The notes under the pieces are model-generated. The model did no database searches. It had not been told where the DNA came from and was given only the letters and a program-made list of their open reading frames with translations. Shown here in pieces: positions 38,138 through 54,600 of a DNA stretch of 64,000 nt. Each line of letters starts with the position of its first letter. The first letter of the stretch is position 1. Where the stretch lies: assembly GCF_000969985.1 (NCBI RefSeq), contig NZ_CP009526.1:4712001-4776000 (forward strand), written 5' to 3'. The position numbers and the translations under genes are program-made. The stretch comes from Methanosarcina barkeri str. Wiesmoor (GTDB lineage Archaea; Halobacteriota; Methanosarcinia; Methanosarcinales; Methanosarcinaceae).

Positions 38138-38926
38138 TTACACTTTGGTAATGGGTCTTGCTATATTTTTGTAGTGATTGAAAAGGCCTTTTCCCCATTT
38201 AAGTGCACTTTCATCAAAACTTACCAGATTATGATTGTAGTAAATCCCACTGTTACAGAAAAGGGAAAGCGCCATGAACTCTTCTGTGACTATGCTTGAA
38301 GCAATTTTCATATTATTATTATTGCAGACATAAAGTTTGGTATGTTTCAGGTTCAGGAAATGTTCAAGTTCCTTCTTGTAGTCATTGAGCATTCTATCAT
38401 AAACGTATTCTGTAAACACCAGAGTTATGTCCGTGCCCTTTGCGGCAAGCTCTATGCACAGTGACGGATAGATGGGCAGGAAAAAGGAGGACGAAATCCT
38501 CACTTTCTCTGATTCGGAAAGATGTTCTACAACTTCTTTTGGATATTCAAACACATGATTTCGGTCAGGGTTTACTTCAATATAGTTTCCAAGCTTTCCG
38601 ATCTCGTCAAGAAACTCAGGAGGAATTGATGTCATATCCTGATTTATCCAGTAATCGTGGTTTTTATCAAAAACGTTGAATGTTTCGAGAATTGTTTTCA
38701 TCTTCGGAACCAGAATCTCTCCGATACTGGAAAGTTTGTAGAGCCTGTTATTCTCAACAATAAGATCCTGTTTCATCAGTATCTTTATCTGGGTCATTAT
38801 TGGGCTCGAACGGACATTAAGTGTGTTTTTGATTTCTTCGATGTTCTTTGGTCCGTCCAGAAGCAGTAAAAGTAGATTTTTCCTTTTTTCTGAAAGAAAG
38901 AGAACATCCAGTAATGATGAATCCAT
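38138..38926 (-). CDS. Msr-type regulator (ArsR-like HTH plus FilR1/DUF1724)
   Basis: It is a 262-residue regulator: winged helix at 1-75 (LFLSEKRKNLLLLLLDG..., NVRSSPIMTQIKILMKQDLI), then the FilR1/DUF1724 domain. Methyltransferase-specific regulators (Msr) of M. acetivorans belong to this family and control methanol methyltransferase operons. About 40% identical to the next two copies in this window (39523 and 53812). RBS GAGGGA precedes ATG 38926. The presence of two of them upstream of the HyuA-like genes suggests control of nearby genes. Confidence 0.88.
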   Translation of the reverse strand: MDSSLLDVLFLSEKRKNLLLLLLDGPKNIEEIKNTLNVRSSPIMTQIKILMKQDLIVENNRLYKLSSIGEILVPKMKTILETFNVFDKNHDYWINQDMTSIPPEFLDEIGKLGNYIEVNPDRNHVFEYPKEVVEHLSESEKVRISSSFFLPIYPSLCIELAAKGTDITLVFTEYVYDRMLNDYKKELEHFLNLKHTKLYVCNNNNMKIASSIVTEEFMALSLFCNSGIYYNHNLVSFDESALKWGKGLFNHYKNIARPITKV

Positions 38927-39522: not shown

Positions 39523-40308
39523 TCAGATCTTGTTTACCTGTCTGGAAAGTCTCTTGAAATAATCAAATAACTCCTGACCCCATAAAAGGGCGCTAGGTTC
39601 AGAGCTTATAATGAATTGCTGGTCGAATTTCCCATTTTTATCAAAAAGACCCAGCATCATTGTCCTATCAGTCACGGTAATCTCAGTAAGCTTTATTCCT
39701 TCTTTTGAAACATACAGACTTACGTTGTCCATGCCCATTAATTCATCTATCATATTTGAGTGTTCTTTTGATAGGTAGTTCCAGACAGATTGATTAAAAT
39801 TCAGGGACAATTCGGCATCTTTTCTGCCAAGCTCAACGTACAGGGGAAGATAAGCAGGGTTGAAATAAGAAGCAAAAGTAGAAGCATGCTTTGCATTGGC
39901 CATGCTGTCAATTATTTCTTGAGAAGGTTCATAGATATGGTTCAGATCGGGTTCTATAAAGGTGCAATCCCCCAGTTCGGATATACGTTCCAGAAGATGA
40001 CGTGGAATTCCGTTCAGATCGTGACCTGTCCAGTATGAGTTGTTTTTCTCAATTACATCAAGAGCATTTATCAGGGGCTTTATCTTCTTGATGATGAACT
40101 CTCCCAGGACTGTGAGTTTATACATTTTGTCTTCCTGGACAATCAGATCATGATCTATCAGTTTCTTTATCTGGGGAAGTATCGAGGTGGCTGTAACATC
40201 CAGTGTGTTCTTGATTTCGTCAATATTTTTTGAGCCGCTATCCAGCAATATAAGAAGGTTTTTTCTCTTATCAGAGCGGAAAACAAGATCAATAAGTGAA
40301 GAATCCAT
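39523..40308 (-). CDS. Msr-type regulator (ArsR-like HTH plus FilR1/DUF1724), paralogue 2
   Basis: It is 261 residues with the same layout as its neighbour: winged helix 1-75 (LVFRSDKRKNLLILLDSGSKNIDEIKNTLDV...), central FilR1/DUF1724 domain with EPDLNHIYEPSQ and a C-terminal SSEPSALLWGQELFDYF helix shared by all three copies. The three copies differ in the central, presumably ligand-binding, part. ATG 40308 has AGGAAG upstream. The two adjacent regulators are transcribed in the same direction; pairs of adjacent Msr genes that act together are known to me from M. acetivorans. Confidence 0.88.
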   Translation of the reverse strand: MDSSLIDLVFRSDKRKNLLILLDSGSKNIDEIKNTLDVTATSILPQIKKLIDHDLIVQEDKMYKLTVLGEFIIKKIKPLINALDVIEKNNSYWTGHDLNGIPRHLLERISELGDCTFIEPDLNHIYEPSQEIIDSMANAKHASTFASYFNPAYLPLYVELGRKDAELSLNFNQSVWNYLSKEHSNMIDELMGMDNVSLYVSKEGIKLTEITVTDRTMMLGLFDKNGKFDQQFIISSEPSALLWGQELFDYFKRLSRQVNKI

Positions 40309-47100: not shown

Positions 47101-48486
47101 TTAGAGCCCGTAGTTTTCTGGTCTGAAAACGGCAACTTCTTGTTTGAACTTGGTCAGGTTGTCGCTCATGAACTGGTCAGCATCATCGGTGAGGGCTTCA
47201 AGGTCGGCCTTAACCTTTGCAAGAGCATTGGTTTCGAATCTTGTAAGTCTTAGCTTGCCGGAGTTGACACCTTCTTCAATGATGTTGCAACATTCGATTG
47301 CTGCGTTCTTTGCACGGAGGTAGTTATTCTCTCCATCCTTTGCGATTTCCTGTGCTACCCTGTAGGCATTGTCGTAAGCAAGCACATAACCCTGTGGGTC
47401 TCTGTATTTGTCTGAGAGCACGAGAATGTCTCTGAGGTCCTTTGCTTTTCCGGTCTTAAGGGCAACGTTCATCATTGAACAGTCGTATGCAAGAGTCTCA
47501 GACCAGCACTGTACAGTTGTACCGCCGAATTCACCGTGGTATTCAACGGACTCGTTGGACCAGAGGTCACAGCATTGCATGACAATGTTACCCATCAGGT
47601 CAGAGTGAGCACAGGTTGAGGTCTTACCTTCCTGAGCAATCGGGACACCTGAAATGGCCTTTATGATGCTGTTCTCATAACCACAGTCCTTTCCAGGACC
47701 TATTGCGCCAGCTTCATATGCACAGAGAGACCTTGCTGCAGAGATTGCCCTTGCAACAATTGCAGTTGTGTGGGCAAGGTTCTTGTCAAGCAGACCGCCT
47801 GCAATGAACATTGCAGTGTTTGCCTGGGCACAGTCCGTATCACCTGAAGATACAGTTCCGGTCTTCTTTGCAACATCTGAAATGTCCTTCCAGACCATTT
47901 CCATATCCATGCTGCCGAGCACACCGATCCCGAAGAGGATACCTGCAGTGTCGTTCCTCAGAATAGAATAGTCAAAGACTTCCTTACCACCCATTGATTC
48001 AACTGCAAGCATATCTGCACCGTTGTTGGCAGCTTCTTCAAAGGCTTCCATAAAGGTGCTGTACTTGTCTCCTCTGAGATCGAGGTAGTCCCTGGTCTCA
48101 CGAATATCTCCAATTGTATGGCGGAGTGCACATTTTATACCGTATTCATCATGATATTCTTCCATGATGGTCTTCTGGGCATGTGCAACAGCCCCTCCCC
48201 ACTCAGGGTTGTTGGACATCTGCTGAACGTGTTCAGTTTCAAGCACAATAGAGGGTGCTCCGATTTGAACCATCCTTGACATAACGTCAGTGGTGATCCT
48301 TTCATACTCTTTTATGAGCTTTTCTTTGGATACACCGGCTCCAGGCCTTGGGGCGTAGTTTATTTCGGGAGTCGTGTAACCTGCACCAATTTCAAGGCCA
48401 AGACCTGCCTTTACAGGGAATTTTGATTGCCCGAAAATCAGTTCATCTGCGTTAGCATAAGCCATTGAAGTGTATTTTTTTACCAT
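47101..48486 (-). CDS. mtaB: Methanol:corrinoid protein methyltransferase MtaB
   Basis: MtaB takes the methyl group of methanol to the corrinoid of MtaC. The 461-residue length is typical. The zinc ligands correspond to those of the M. barkeri enzyme (Glu164, Cys220, Cys269 there): here Glu163, Cys219 (SGDTDCAQ) and Cys268 (GPGKDCGYENS), one position earlier. It ends 35 bp before the YaaH-type gene start codon region and starts 13 bp after mtaC, with GGAGGG upstream, so mtaC-mtaB form one operon. Confidence 0.97.
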   Translation of the reverse strand: MVKKYTSMAYANADELIFGQSKFPVKAGLGLEIGAGYTTPEINYAPRPGAGVSKEKLIKEYERITTDVMSRMVQIGAPSIVLETEHVQQMSNNPEWGGAVAHAQKTIMEEYHDEYGIKCALRHTIGDIRETRDYLDLRGDKYSTFMEAFEEAANNGADMLAVESMGGKEVFDYSILRNDTAGILFGIGVLGSMDMEMVWKDISDVAKKTGTVSSGDTDCAQANTAMFIAGGLLDKNLAHTTAIVARAISAARSLCAYEAGAIGPGKDCGYENSIIKAISGVPIAQEGKTSTCAHSDLMGNIVMQCCDLWSNESVEYHGEFGGTTVQCWSETLAYDCSMMNVALKTGKAKDLRDILVLSDKYRDPQGYVLAYDNAYRVAQEIAKDGENNYLRAKNAAIECCNIIEEGVNSGKLRLTRFETNALAKVKADLEALTDDADQFMSDNLTKFKQEVAVFRPENYGL

Positions 48487-48499
48487 TTTTGCTCCCTCC

Positions 48500-49276
48500 T
48501 CAGTGTTTGTGGAACTCCTCTCTTAATGCTGTGATATCTTTGGTACCTGCAACGATTGCGTCAGCAATCTTGGGGGCGTCTGCGGCTTCTTCACCATAAA
48601 CCCCAAGTTCATACTGAGACACGAAGTCCTGGTTCACAGCACCGCCACCACATGCGAATGGGAGTTTTATTCCCTTTTCAAGGAGCTTGTCATTAACTTC
48701 CTTGAATGCATACATGGTGGTTGTCATAAGAGCAGTACCTGTGAGCATTATTGGCTTTTCTTTTTCAACTGCAGCGATTACTTCGTCTACAGGGACATCT
48801 CTTCCAAGGTCAATTACCTCGTAGCCGTTTGCTCTCAGAAGGGCAGCAACAATGTTCTTTCCGATGTCATGGACATCGCCTTCTGCAACATGGCAGACAA
48901 CCTTGCCTTTTGGCTCAGGAACTTCGGTGGTCTGACTCTTGCAGAATTCGATACCTGCCAGCATGGCATCAGCGGACATCATAACGTTCGGGAGGAAAAT
49001 GATACCATCGTCGTAGAGCTGGGTTACAACTCCCATTCCTACCATCAGGGCATCATCGATAAGGTCGATTGGCTTCTTGCCTGCATCGATTGCAGCCTGG
49101 AGTGCGTCAACTACGTCATCCTCTTCTCCTTCATAGATTGCTTTTGCAACAGGATAGATGAGTTCGTCTTTGGGATAAAGCTCTTCTGCAGCTTCATCGG
49201 GGGTCATTTCCTTTTCGAGGGCGACGTTGTAGCGTACTAATATGCCATCGATGTCTTCCAGTTTCAAATCCAACAT
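48500..49276 (-). CDS. mtaC: Methanol corrinoid protein MtaC
   Basis: MtaC carries the cobamide that accepts the methyl group from MtaB and donates it to MtaA. The 258-residue protein has an N-terminal helical cap (about 1-118) and a B12-binding Rossmann domain with the DxHxxG motif EGDVHDIGKN; the lower-ligand His is His136, the known position for MtaC. RBS GGAGG lies before ATG 49276. It heads the operon mtaC-mtaB-YaaH-type gene, behind a very long upstream gap. Confidence 0.97.
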   Translation of the reverse strand: MLDLKLEDIDGILVRYNVALEKEMTPDEAAEELYPKDELIYPVAKAIYEGEEDDVVDALQAAIDAGKKPIDLIDDALMVGMGVVTQLYDDGIIFLPNVMMSADAMLAGIEFCKSQTTEVPEPKGKVVCHVAEGDVHDIGKNIVAALLRANGYEVIDLGRDVPVDEVIAAVEKEKPIMLTGTALMTTTMYAFKEVNDKLLEKGIKLPFACGGGAVNQDFVSQYELGVYGEEAADAPKIADAIVAGTKDITALREEFHKH

Positions 49277-50530
49277 ATTTTAACCTCCATTTAGCAAAAG
49301 AGTCTCGGATTGCTCAGATCGTTGACTCTGCAAGTTACATCTCCCTACAGTTTTTAAGCATTTTTTACCAAACGCTTCTTGAATATAATGTCAGGAAATC
49401 CGAAAACCTCCAGATCGAATTCCTTCTATTGAGGGGGATTGAGTAACTTTGAGTGATGTACTGATCATTCAGAAACCGGGATTCAGTCCTTTCTCTCGTT
49501 TTTCAAGCTTTCTGAAGAGAGCTTTGGAATTACTTCCAATTTTTTACCCGTTTTTTAAGCTTTTGTCAGAAAACTTTTAAGTCGCCAGGTCTTCTATTTT
49601 CGATATTCTGGCTCTAAAAGGACCTTTTTTCCAGTTAATTCTGATAAGTGTACTCCCTTTAGTATTCCGGGATGCACTTGCAGATCACAGTTAGATTTTA
49701 TTACATATACCTTCACCGATGCTAATTTTTGAATTGCTATAATTTTATAATTCTCATCTCAATTTTCTCTGCAAATGATTTTATAAAAAAGAAGTATTTT
49801 TTTTCCCCCTTTGATTTAAACAACGAGATCAAAATTTATGAGCCGATTGTTTTCAATTCCAGGGAAATTTTATTGCAGAGGGTAAAGATATGGAAGTTTT
49901 TATTTTGAGCGCGGAGGTTATCAAGTAGATTTGTTTTTTATTGTAGATTTGAAACAGGCAAAATAAGGTGATCAAAGTATATTTTTGAAAGCACACAAGT
50001 GAAATGAATCTCCTGTCCAGTTCTCTTCAGGAATTCCTTAATTTCTTACTTTCGATGGAAACTGTGTGAGAGCTTCCATAACTTCAATCGTTTAATTCTT
50101 TGGGGTTCATACAGATTCATTTTTTGCCGTTTCCCAACATTTTTTTAAACAGAGGCAAACTATTTTCTTGGCAGGTTATTCGGACTCTGTCTTTAATTTT
50201 CTAATAAGCAGGTTCCTATACAACTGCTTTAACTTTTACTATCAGTTGGGCGATAGTTTTCTCCATATGGCTGAAAGAGTACTTTACCTCTCTATCTGAG
50301 GGGTAATCTTCCGACAAGGGGCGATGACCATTTTATGATATATAAAGTTTTTGTGTGTCGGGCCACATCTGTCCTGAGCCGGAAACTTTCGTCCTCTACA
50401 TTTATCATCATCCATGCCGCAACTGTCATGAATAGGAAACTTTCGAACCGGAAATCGCCTTCCTCCTAGAGATTACTTCTCCCGCCCAGGTTGAAAAATG
50501 GATTATCCTTGCTTTTGGATTTAAGAAGGT
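49277..50530 (-). promoter_or_regulatory. Long upstream region of mtaC
   Basis: This 1.25-kb gap contains no gene. TATA candidates on the minus strand lie at about 50337-50347 (TTTATATAT) and 49698-49712 (GGTATATG). Two direct copies of CGAAAGTTTCC (minus strand; GGAAACTTTCG at 50381-50391 and 50435-50445) lie 35-100 bp upstream of the first. Methanosarcina mta operons are regulated strongly and are thought to have long leaders, so the region is probably an activator-binding site plus a leader of up to 1 kb. Confidence 0.55.
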
Positions 50531-51417: not shown

Positions 51418-51505
51418 ATTACGGTAAATTGGAACTACAGTAAATCGAAACTACAGTAAATCAAAACTACAGTAAATCAAAACTACAGTAAATCGCAACT
51501 ATTGT
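51418..51505. repeat. 16-bp tandem repeat, about five copies
   Basis: ACTACAGTAAATCGAA is repeated about five times with end decay. The array is upstream of the tbp gene, 330 bp from its start. Confidence 0.85.
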
Positions 51506-51826
51506 ACTCGGTCATTACTTTCCTGAACCAAAACTATTCTTCCGCCCAAAGTTTTTCAGCTTAAGAAATGATCATTGCCTGATATAACCTGGTTTTTTTC
51601 TTTCCACCTTTTAAAGGAAAGCTGCTTTTCTTTCAGACATCTGCTTATTGTTATCCACAGCTTTAATAAGTTCATCTCTGGGCACGGACGTTACCGCAGA
51701 AAATACATTTACTCTTGATTGAGGTTTTCCTTTTTTAAGGCTTCCATTTTAGGGATTTTATGCGCAGAAGTTCCACTTCCCTTTACAAGATTTTCCTGAT
51801 GCCTGAAAGAAAGCTTAATGTGGCTT

Positions 51827-51960
51827 ATGTGGTTGGGTGGTTTATGTGGTTGGGTGGTTTATGTGATTGAGTGGTTTATGTGATTGAGTGGTTTATGTGA
51901 TTGAGTGGTTTATGTGATTGAGTGGTTTATGTGATTGAGTGGTTTATGTGGTTTGGTGAT
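51827..51960. repeat. 17-bp tandem repeat, about seven copies
   Basis: GGTTTATGTGATTGAGT is repeated with early copies reading GGTTGGGT instead of GATTGAGT. No ORF uses it. Confidence 0.9.
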
Positions 51961-52813: not shown

Positions 52814-53811
52814 GCCTTTACACCTTCCATAAGTTAATTAAGAGTCTGAATAACTCTCTGGGTAGTGACAATATCTCTACAGGGTGTCGAAAATAGAGAG
52901 ACACTGCCACCAGTGTTTAAGAACGTTTTTCCGGGGTTATCTCCAGAGGTTGTTATTCCTTTTGACTCTATAATTAAAGATTCTCTCAATTGTATATAGC
53001 TTAACCGACACTGTTTTTTAAATGAGGTGCAATATTTACCCCTTTTAAAAATAAGCTTTTCCTGAAATTTCATACTTGCCTGAATTTTCCAACACATTGA
53101 ATTTTCAATATTACAAGAGGGCAACAAACTTCTGCAGGCTAGAAAAAAGAAGGCATTAAATATTGAAGGGTATTGAAAATTTGAAGGCTTGACTCACATA
53201 TTCAATATAGATCTCATCCCAAAGTTAACTTTATTCTCTCATTAGTAAGAGTTTCAGAATTATTTTTCAGGATCAGAAGCTCTATTGATAATCCAGAATA
53301 CAATATCCAGAAAAGCAATTTTGAGTTTTGAGATCAGCTCATATGGAAATCCAGAGTTCTGAATATCCAGAGTTTTAAAGAGCTTTATCCTGCTTACAGG
53401 CAATAGCATTTGTAATATTCGGAATCAATAAAAGAGTTTTCTTTTCAATATACTTTAAATATGATCTCCGCAATATATGTTATGTATTATTAGAAATTAA
53501 ATATAATCCTCACAATATTAATTTAGTTCTGGTTGAAAATTATTCCCCGTTTTTAAGACGAAAGCGTTTTATCAATTGATACACGGATGTATGTCTCTGA
53601 GCAAGACCCGAATAAGCAAGAATAAAATCTTAATTGCTTCTAATATTGATTAACGTGATAAGTATCGTTGATATGAAACGCTTTTTATTTCATCATCTCT
53701 TGACTAAAAGATTGAAACTATGCTGCTCCATGATAGTGGTGTATTTTAGGGCAAATCCTAGCGAATTTGTTCCAGTTGAGACAACATATGAGTAATTGGA
53801 AGCTGATAAAC
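52814..53811. other. Intergenic region upstream of an Msr gene
   Basis: About 1 kb of AT-rich sequence with no convincing gene. The motif ATATCCAGA recurs at about 53298 and 53368, and CCAGAGTT nearby three times. A plus-strand TATA-like ATATAAT is at about 53500. An MsrC-like regulator starts at 53812, so this region should contain its promoter and possibly regulator sites. Confidence 0.4.
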
Positions 53812-54600
53812 ATGAGTTCACTTATAGACCTGATTTTTTTCTCTGAAAAAAGAAAAAATCTTCTTGTTCAATTAGCTAACGGGCCGATGGATATTAACGA
53901 GATAAAAGAAGTTCTTCATGTAAACTCCTGTGCTCTAATGCCTCAGATTAAAAAACTGAAAGATATGGATATGATAGTGCAGAAGGGAAGTATCTACCAA
54001 CTTTCGGATATAGGATCAGTAATCGTTGAGAAAATGCTCCCTCTTAAAGCTGTTCTTGACGTTTTTGATGGAAACAAGGACTATTGGTCAAAGCATGACA
54101 GATCTCCTATTCCCGAACACCTTATTAATAAAATTGATATGTTGGAAAAGTGTAACCTGGACGAGCCTGATCTTGACCACCTTTTCGAATTTCCACAGTA
54201 TTTGCGTGACAAGCTAAATGGTTCAAAAACTATAAAATCTTTTTACTCTTATTTCTGTCCTGATTGCCCGTCAATCCATGCTGCCTGTGCGGAAACTGGG
54301 GCCGAAGTACACCTTATGCTCGATGAAAAAGTGTATAACAGATTTAAAAATGACTTTACAGAAGAATATAATGTGTTGCTTGAAAATAAAGTATCACTTT
54401 ATATATACTCCGGCAAAATAAGGCCCTCGTCTTTCATGGTTACAGATAATTTCTTTATGCTGAAACTCTTCGGAAAAGAAGGAGAATTCGATCACAGGAA
54501 GATCACGAGTTTTACTCCAAGTGCCCTGGAGTGGGGAAATGAACTGGCTCAGTATTATATAGACCGCTCCACAAAGATTAATTATAACGATGAAGATTAA
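53812..54600 (+). CDS. Msr-type regulator (ArsR-like HTH plus FilR1/DUF1724), paralogue 3
   Basis: It is 262 residues, third of the Msr-type regulators in this window and the only one on the plus strand. Winged helix 1-75 (MSSLIDLIFFSEKRKNLLVQL..., VNSCALMPQIKKLKDMDMI); FilR1/DUF1724 domain with EPDLDHLFEFPQYLRD and a final TPSALEWGNELAQYYIDRS helix. Start ATG 53812 gives the same N-terminus as the other two; the frame opens 15 codons earlier at 53767 without an RBS. It lies between the cobW and cbi genes, so it may control cobalt uptake or methanol genes. Confidence 0.88.
   Translation: MSSLIDLIFFSEKRKNLLVQLANGPMDINEIKEVLHVNSCALMPQIKKLKDMDMIVQKGSIYQLSDIGSVIVEKMLPLKAVLDVFDGNKDYWSKHDRSPIPEHLINKIDMLEKCNLDEPDLDHLFEFPQYLRDKLNGSKTIKSFYSYFCPDCPSIHAACAETGAEVHLMLDEKVYNRFKNDFTEEYNVLLENKVSLYIYSGKIRPSSFMVTDNFFMLKLFGKEGEFDHRKITSFTPSALEWGNELAQYYIDRSTKINYNDED

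Follow-up and report, generated by a model that had tools for sequence, protein, structure and literature searches.

A probable promoter about 1,000 bases upstream of the mtaCB2 operon of Methanosarcina barkeri, beside a conserved DNA site

The window analyzed here, a stretch of 64,000 nucleotides from Methanosarcina barkeri str. Wiesmoor (contig NZ_CP009526.1, positions 4,712,001 to 4,776,000), harbours an mtaCB operon on its minus strand. The mtaC gene (48500..49276), of the mtaC2 type, encodes a protein with Pfam B12-binding domains that shares 90 % identity with the syntenic ortholog from genome G001, which we take to be M. acetivorans C2A. It is followed by mtaB (47101..48486, minus strand), recognized by a PF12176 match. 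Three genes with PF08350 matches encode FilR1-type regulators, which are MsrD-like (39523..40308, minus strand), MsrE-like (38138..38926, minus strand) and MsrC-like (53767..54600, plus strand); a tblastn comparison with the matching stretch of G001 gave syntenic orthologs of 88 %, 94 % and 77 % identity, respectively. The MsrD and MsrE orthologs are encoded downstream of mtaCB, 9-11 kb away, and the MsrC ortholog upstream. This gene order agrees with the arrangement of msrC before and msrDE after mtaCB2 (PMC11619418), and on that basis the operon is identified as mtaCB2, a methanol methyltransferase operon, and its neighbours, by position, as MsrC, MsrD and MsrE.

A gene for TBP (51085-50531, minus strand) lies between a cobW-like gene and mtaC, while the cobW-mtaC interval of M. 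acetivorans contains no TBP gene. The cobW-like gene (52813-51650, minus strand) stops early, encoding 223 amino acids versus 367 in M. acetivorans; a C-terminal-like cobW stretch, recognized by eye (~51700-51650), lies past a tandem repeat of GATTGAGTGGTTTATGT (about 51830-51960).

The probable promoter block and its upstream element

Leader DNA of mtaC was detected in 27 of 31 Methanosarcina genomes, and the promoter regions of 25 of these were compared for conservation in an alignment (A1). A near-indel-free block at 50398-50318, comprising an upstream element, a BRE, a TATA box and the start region, measures 81 nt in 24 of the 25 genomes and has the consensus TGAAGGAAGAATGTTTCCGGTTCAGGACAGCCGTGACCTGACACACAAAAACTTTATATATGATAAAATnGTCATCGCCCC. 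It is found 0.98-1.13 kb upstream of mtaC in all 25. A sequence model of the block made from the proximal sites only (R1) gave a single strong match per genome in 25 of the 31 genomes (E 1e-16 to 1e-24). In a sister genus (g5) a weaker block was found in four genomes, ~1.05-1.1 kb before mtaC, two of them by a family scan and two more by direct search of the regions upstream of mtaC. The putative BRE (CAAAA, 50349..50353) and TATA box (TTTATATA, 50339..50346), both on the minus strand, fit the BRE-N2-TATA consensus described for Methanosarcina (PMC11409679): CAAAA-N2-TTTATATA (50353-50339) matches it with 0 mismatches, and the 25 orthologs deviate at 3 or fewer of 13 positions (mean 0.8 of 13).

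Directly upstream of the BRE lies the proximal upstream element (50369..50394, minus strand), which reads GGAC-N6-TTCC-N6-GGACAG in this genome and is conserved in the 25 genomes with almost no indels between it and the TATA box. Its consensus is GGAAgnATRTTTCCGGTTCAGGAMAG, with a conserved core GGAA-N6-TTCC-GG-N4-GGAM. The half-sites GGAA, TTCC and GGAM occupy columns 5-8, 15-18 and 25-28 of A1, a pitch of 10 bp that would place them on the same face of the helix. GGAA-N6-TTCC forms an imperfect 14-bp dyad, which 15 of the 25 genomes have without deviation at the proximal site. The left half-site is degenerate here (GGAC), and the element is poorly preserved in four of the 25 genomes (L015, L017, L018 and L019); both points weigh against the reading preferred below. 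An element at fixed spacing just upstream of the BRE, with repeated half-sites in helical phase, is what is expected of an archaeal activator site. The activator-type position proposed in the initial annotation is thus borne out by conservation upstream of BRE and TATA in the 25 Methanosarcina genomes and, more weakly, in the four genomes of the sister genus.

A wider regulon defined by R1 was considered and rejected: its only clear extra matches were a single copy resembling the element upstream of the TBP gene (51504..51545, minus strand; 17.3 bits, E 7e-5 in 20 kb) and a decayed cobW-locus duplicate in M. acetivorans. Several genomes share a further weak match, located within a transporter-like gene. 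The M. acetivorans duplicate (L084, 6478-6530) is a second segment of cobW and upstream element, without TATA box, derived from the mtaCB2 neighbourhood.

A second copy of the element is located further upstream (50423..50463, minus strand), consisting of a dyad, GGAAGGCGATTTCC (50463-50450), followed by GAAAGTTTCC-N6-TGACAG, and is matched by R1 at 50465-50440. This distal copy was found only in the seven closest genomes, where R1 detects it in all seven although the model was not trained on it; the GGAA-N6-TTCC dyad is likewise present in 7/7. In M. acetivorans the position of the distal copy is occupied by the last part of cobW, and the block there starts at the cobW stop codon. Judged by these comparisons, the distal copy was added in a single clade, and the two copies of the initial annotation belong to that clade rather than to the locus in general.

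Candidate regulators

PMC3960522 and PMC11218639 describe MsrD and MsrE as activators of mtaCB2 that are both required, the operon's need for them being one of M. acetivorans, and according to work cited in PMC3960522 expression of mtaCB2 is lost when msrD or msrE is knocked out singly. MsrD and MsrE reportedly also repress mtaCB3. An MsrE ortholog of at least 90 % identity is encoded in all 25 genomes with the block, and the near-complete genomes G017 and G024 lack both. The locus is inherited as a unit, however, so this co-occurrence is no proof of binding. A site for MsrD and/or MsrE at the upstream element is plausible.

Searches of leaders of the mtaCB1 and mtaCB3 types did not recover the element, with no match in the mtaCB3 leaders of M. 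acetivorans (L103) or of this genome (L052), nor was it found near msrD and msrE themselves. Its absence from the mtaCB3-type leader and from msrD and msrE argues against a simple MsrD/MsrE operator. A limited literature search found no described DNA site for Msr regulators. Promoter and element might also be real but bound by MsrC, MreA or another winged-helix protein, MsrD and MsrE acting indirectly. The literature implicates MsrC in mtaCB2 and MreA in mtaCB regulation, an MsrC-like gene lies upstream within the window, and the element is missing from mtaCB3, which is also under MsrD/MsrE control. We regard this as a rather unlikely but serious alternative, because the loss of mtaCB2 expression in either knock-out, as cited in PMC3960522, makes MsrD and MsrE the simplest candidates.

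The element resembles the operator of hdrBCA in M. barkeri, also a conserved palindromic promoter site of a methanogenesis operon, to which binding of the winged-helix protein HdrR has been reported by footprint and gel shift (PMC11218639). The operator belongs to another gene, and the likeness is one of description. In M. acetivorans the mtaCB1, mtaCB2 and mtaCB3 operons are controlled by MsrA-MsrE; the operon described here is of the same type and has syntenic MsrD, MsrE and MsrC orthologs, but the present element is specific to the mtaCB2 type.

The predicted leader

Methanosarcina transcripts start ~23 bp below the TATA box (PMC11409679), which would place the mtaCB2 start near 50316 (predicted region 50310..50322, minus strand), adjoining a conserved TCATCG block. 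The predicted mtaC leader (49277..50316, minus strand) would be ~1040 nt long, in line with the distance between block and ATG in the 25 genomes. Usual leaders in Methanosarcina are 100-500 nt (PMC11409679); a length of about 1 kb goes beyond that range, which speaks against the proposed promoter, although its BRE/TATA arrangement is otherwise typical. For a cold-adaptive methanogen, work cited in PMC5378194 describes long mtaA and mtaC 5' untranslated regions reported to affect transcript stability, a likeness by description. The leader of about 1 kb proposed in the initial annotation corresponds to ~1.04 kb between the box and the mtaC ATG (49276), and conservation backs its placement. Such a leader is likely, since no BRE/TATA of the aligned region other than that of the block is conserved in all 25 genomes. 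We conclude that in Methanosarcina a promoter some 1,000 bases upstream, beside a conserved DNA site, probably turns on mtaCB2.

Alternatively, the box at 50346 could drive a separate non-coding RNA, with mtaC transcribed from a nearer promoter. A strongly conserved block lies between box and gene (49648..49853, minus strand), and a weak TATA-like site occurs near 49796 in six genomes. That site deviates at 3 positions, however, and most genomes do not have it; no second BRE/TATA conserved in all genomes was found in the leader part of the 25-genome alignment, and the distance from block to gene has been kept near 1 kb. We therefore consider a separate transcript improbable.

The conservation profile puts the leader block (49853-49648) on a level with the promoter block, and it is still recognizable, at 70-76 %, in the genera g5 and g4. 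A coding role was rejected, as 1-nt indels in relatives interrupt the 40-amino-acid open reading frame at 49594-49716. Searches for RNA families and structures gave little: no Rfam match was found in the leader (one irrelevant sub-threshold match lay outside it), RNAalifold gave almost no consensus structure for the leader block, and two hairpins drawn by hand showed modest covariation that is explicable by relatedness. For a 27-nt stretch within the block, AAAAATTAGCATCGGTGAAGGTATATG (49704..49730, minus strand), a similar sequence, AAAAATTTCCGTCGGTTATGGTATATG, is present in mtaC1-type leaders, both here (L051) and in M. acetivorans (L102), and none was found in mtaC3-type leaders. The match of 22/27, the same in both genomes, compares with 21 for the best of 60 shuffles, which is suggestive only of a leader element possibly shared with the mtaCB1 type. 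Elsewhere in the leader GAATTCGATCTGGAGGTTTTCGAATTC (49430-49400, minus strand), conserved in relatives, might fold into a hairpin whose loop carries a Shine-Dalgarno-like GGAGG.

The repeated 11-mer, the proposed mechanism and its meaning

The initial annotation had singled out a repeated 11-mer, CGAAAGTTTCC, at the position of archaeal activator sites, as a candidate for an Msr binding site. Both minus-strand copies are exact, at 50391-50381 (proximal) and 50445-50435 (distal), and lie 35-99 bp upstream of the TTTATATAT box (50346-50338), as it had claimed. No further match with one mismatch or fewer was found in the window. Taken by itself, the 11-mer carries little weight: 8.7 % of dinucleotide shuffles of the leader yielded an exact repeat of at least 11 nt within 100 bp, and as a genome-wide motif the exact 11-mer was rejected, its 5 copies falling below the 7 of a reversed control. 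The surrounding element was recovered at the related loci in 25 genomes, but the exact 11-mer was not: its proximal copy is absent from the other 24 Methanosarcina genomes compared, and its distal copy recurs in L012 only. The exact 11-mer is hence not supported as the recognized unit. It is part of a longer repeat of 30 nt (50391-50362 and 50445-50416; 24/30 identical, spacing 54), which none of 1000 shuffles reached. A mere coincidence of AT-rich DNA without any binding site, for which the shuffle frequency (p = 0.087), the genomic counts and the confinement of the proximal 11-mer to this genome could be adduced, is very improbable in view of the 30-nt repeat and of an element kept in 25 genomes, and is disfavoured already for the proximal element. 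The identical 11-mers would mark the portion over which the two element copies coincidentally agree letter for letter in this genome, where the first proximal half-site is GGAC, which explains why the 11-mer rather than the dyad caught the eye. The earlier reading is thus partly supported: right in kind, with an activator site, a distant promoter and a leader of ~1 kb, but with the wrong unit.

Our preferred reading, to which we assign a probability of roughly 0.6, is that the site is the mtaCB2 promoter, with a distant start, a leader of ~1.04 kb and a conserved activator element most likely bound by MsrD and/or MsrE. The BRE CAAAA and TATA box TTTATATA (50353-50339), located by their conservation, would initiate transcription near 50316. 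Directly upstream, alternating GGAA/TTCC/GGAM half-sites 10 bp apart would present one helix face to a dimeric winged-helix regulator, which probably binds there and may help to recruit TBP and TFB when methanol is present. MsrD and/or MsrE, encoded 9-11 kb away, would be the most likely binders; this species and its closest relatives have an additional, more distal copy. It is possible, though doubtful, that the site is moreover the first MsrD/MsrE operator, preceding an unusually long leader of ~1 kb in which the conserved segment serves as a regulatory RNA element, part of which also occurs with mtaCB1.

The Msr regulators determine which methanol methyltransferase Methanosarcina makes, and the 26-bp element, preserved across 25 genomes, lends itself directly to gel shifts and reporter mutants. 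With a leader of ~1 kb, reporter fusions carrying shorter upstream fragments would lack the promoter. If the leader of mtaCB2, and in part that of mtaCB1, does contain an RNA element, this would explain the post-transcriptional control that has been reported for them.
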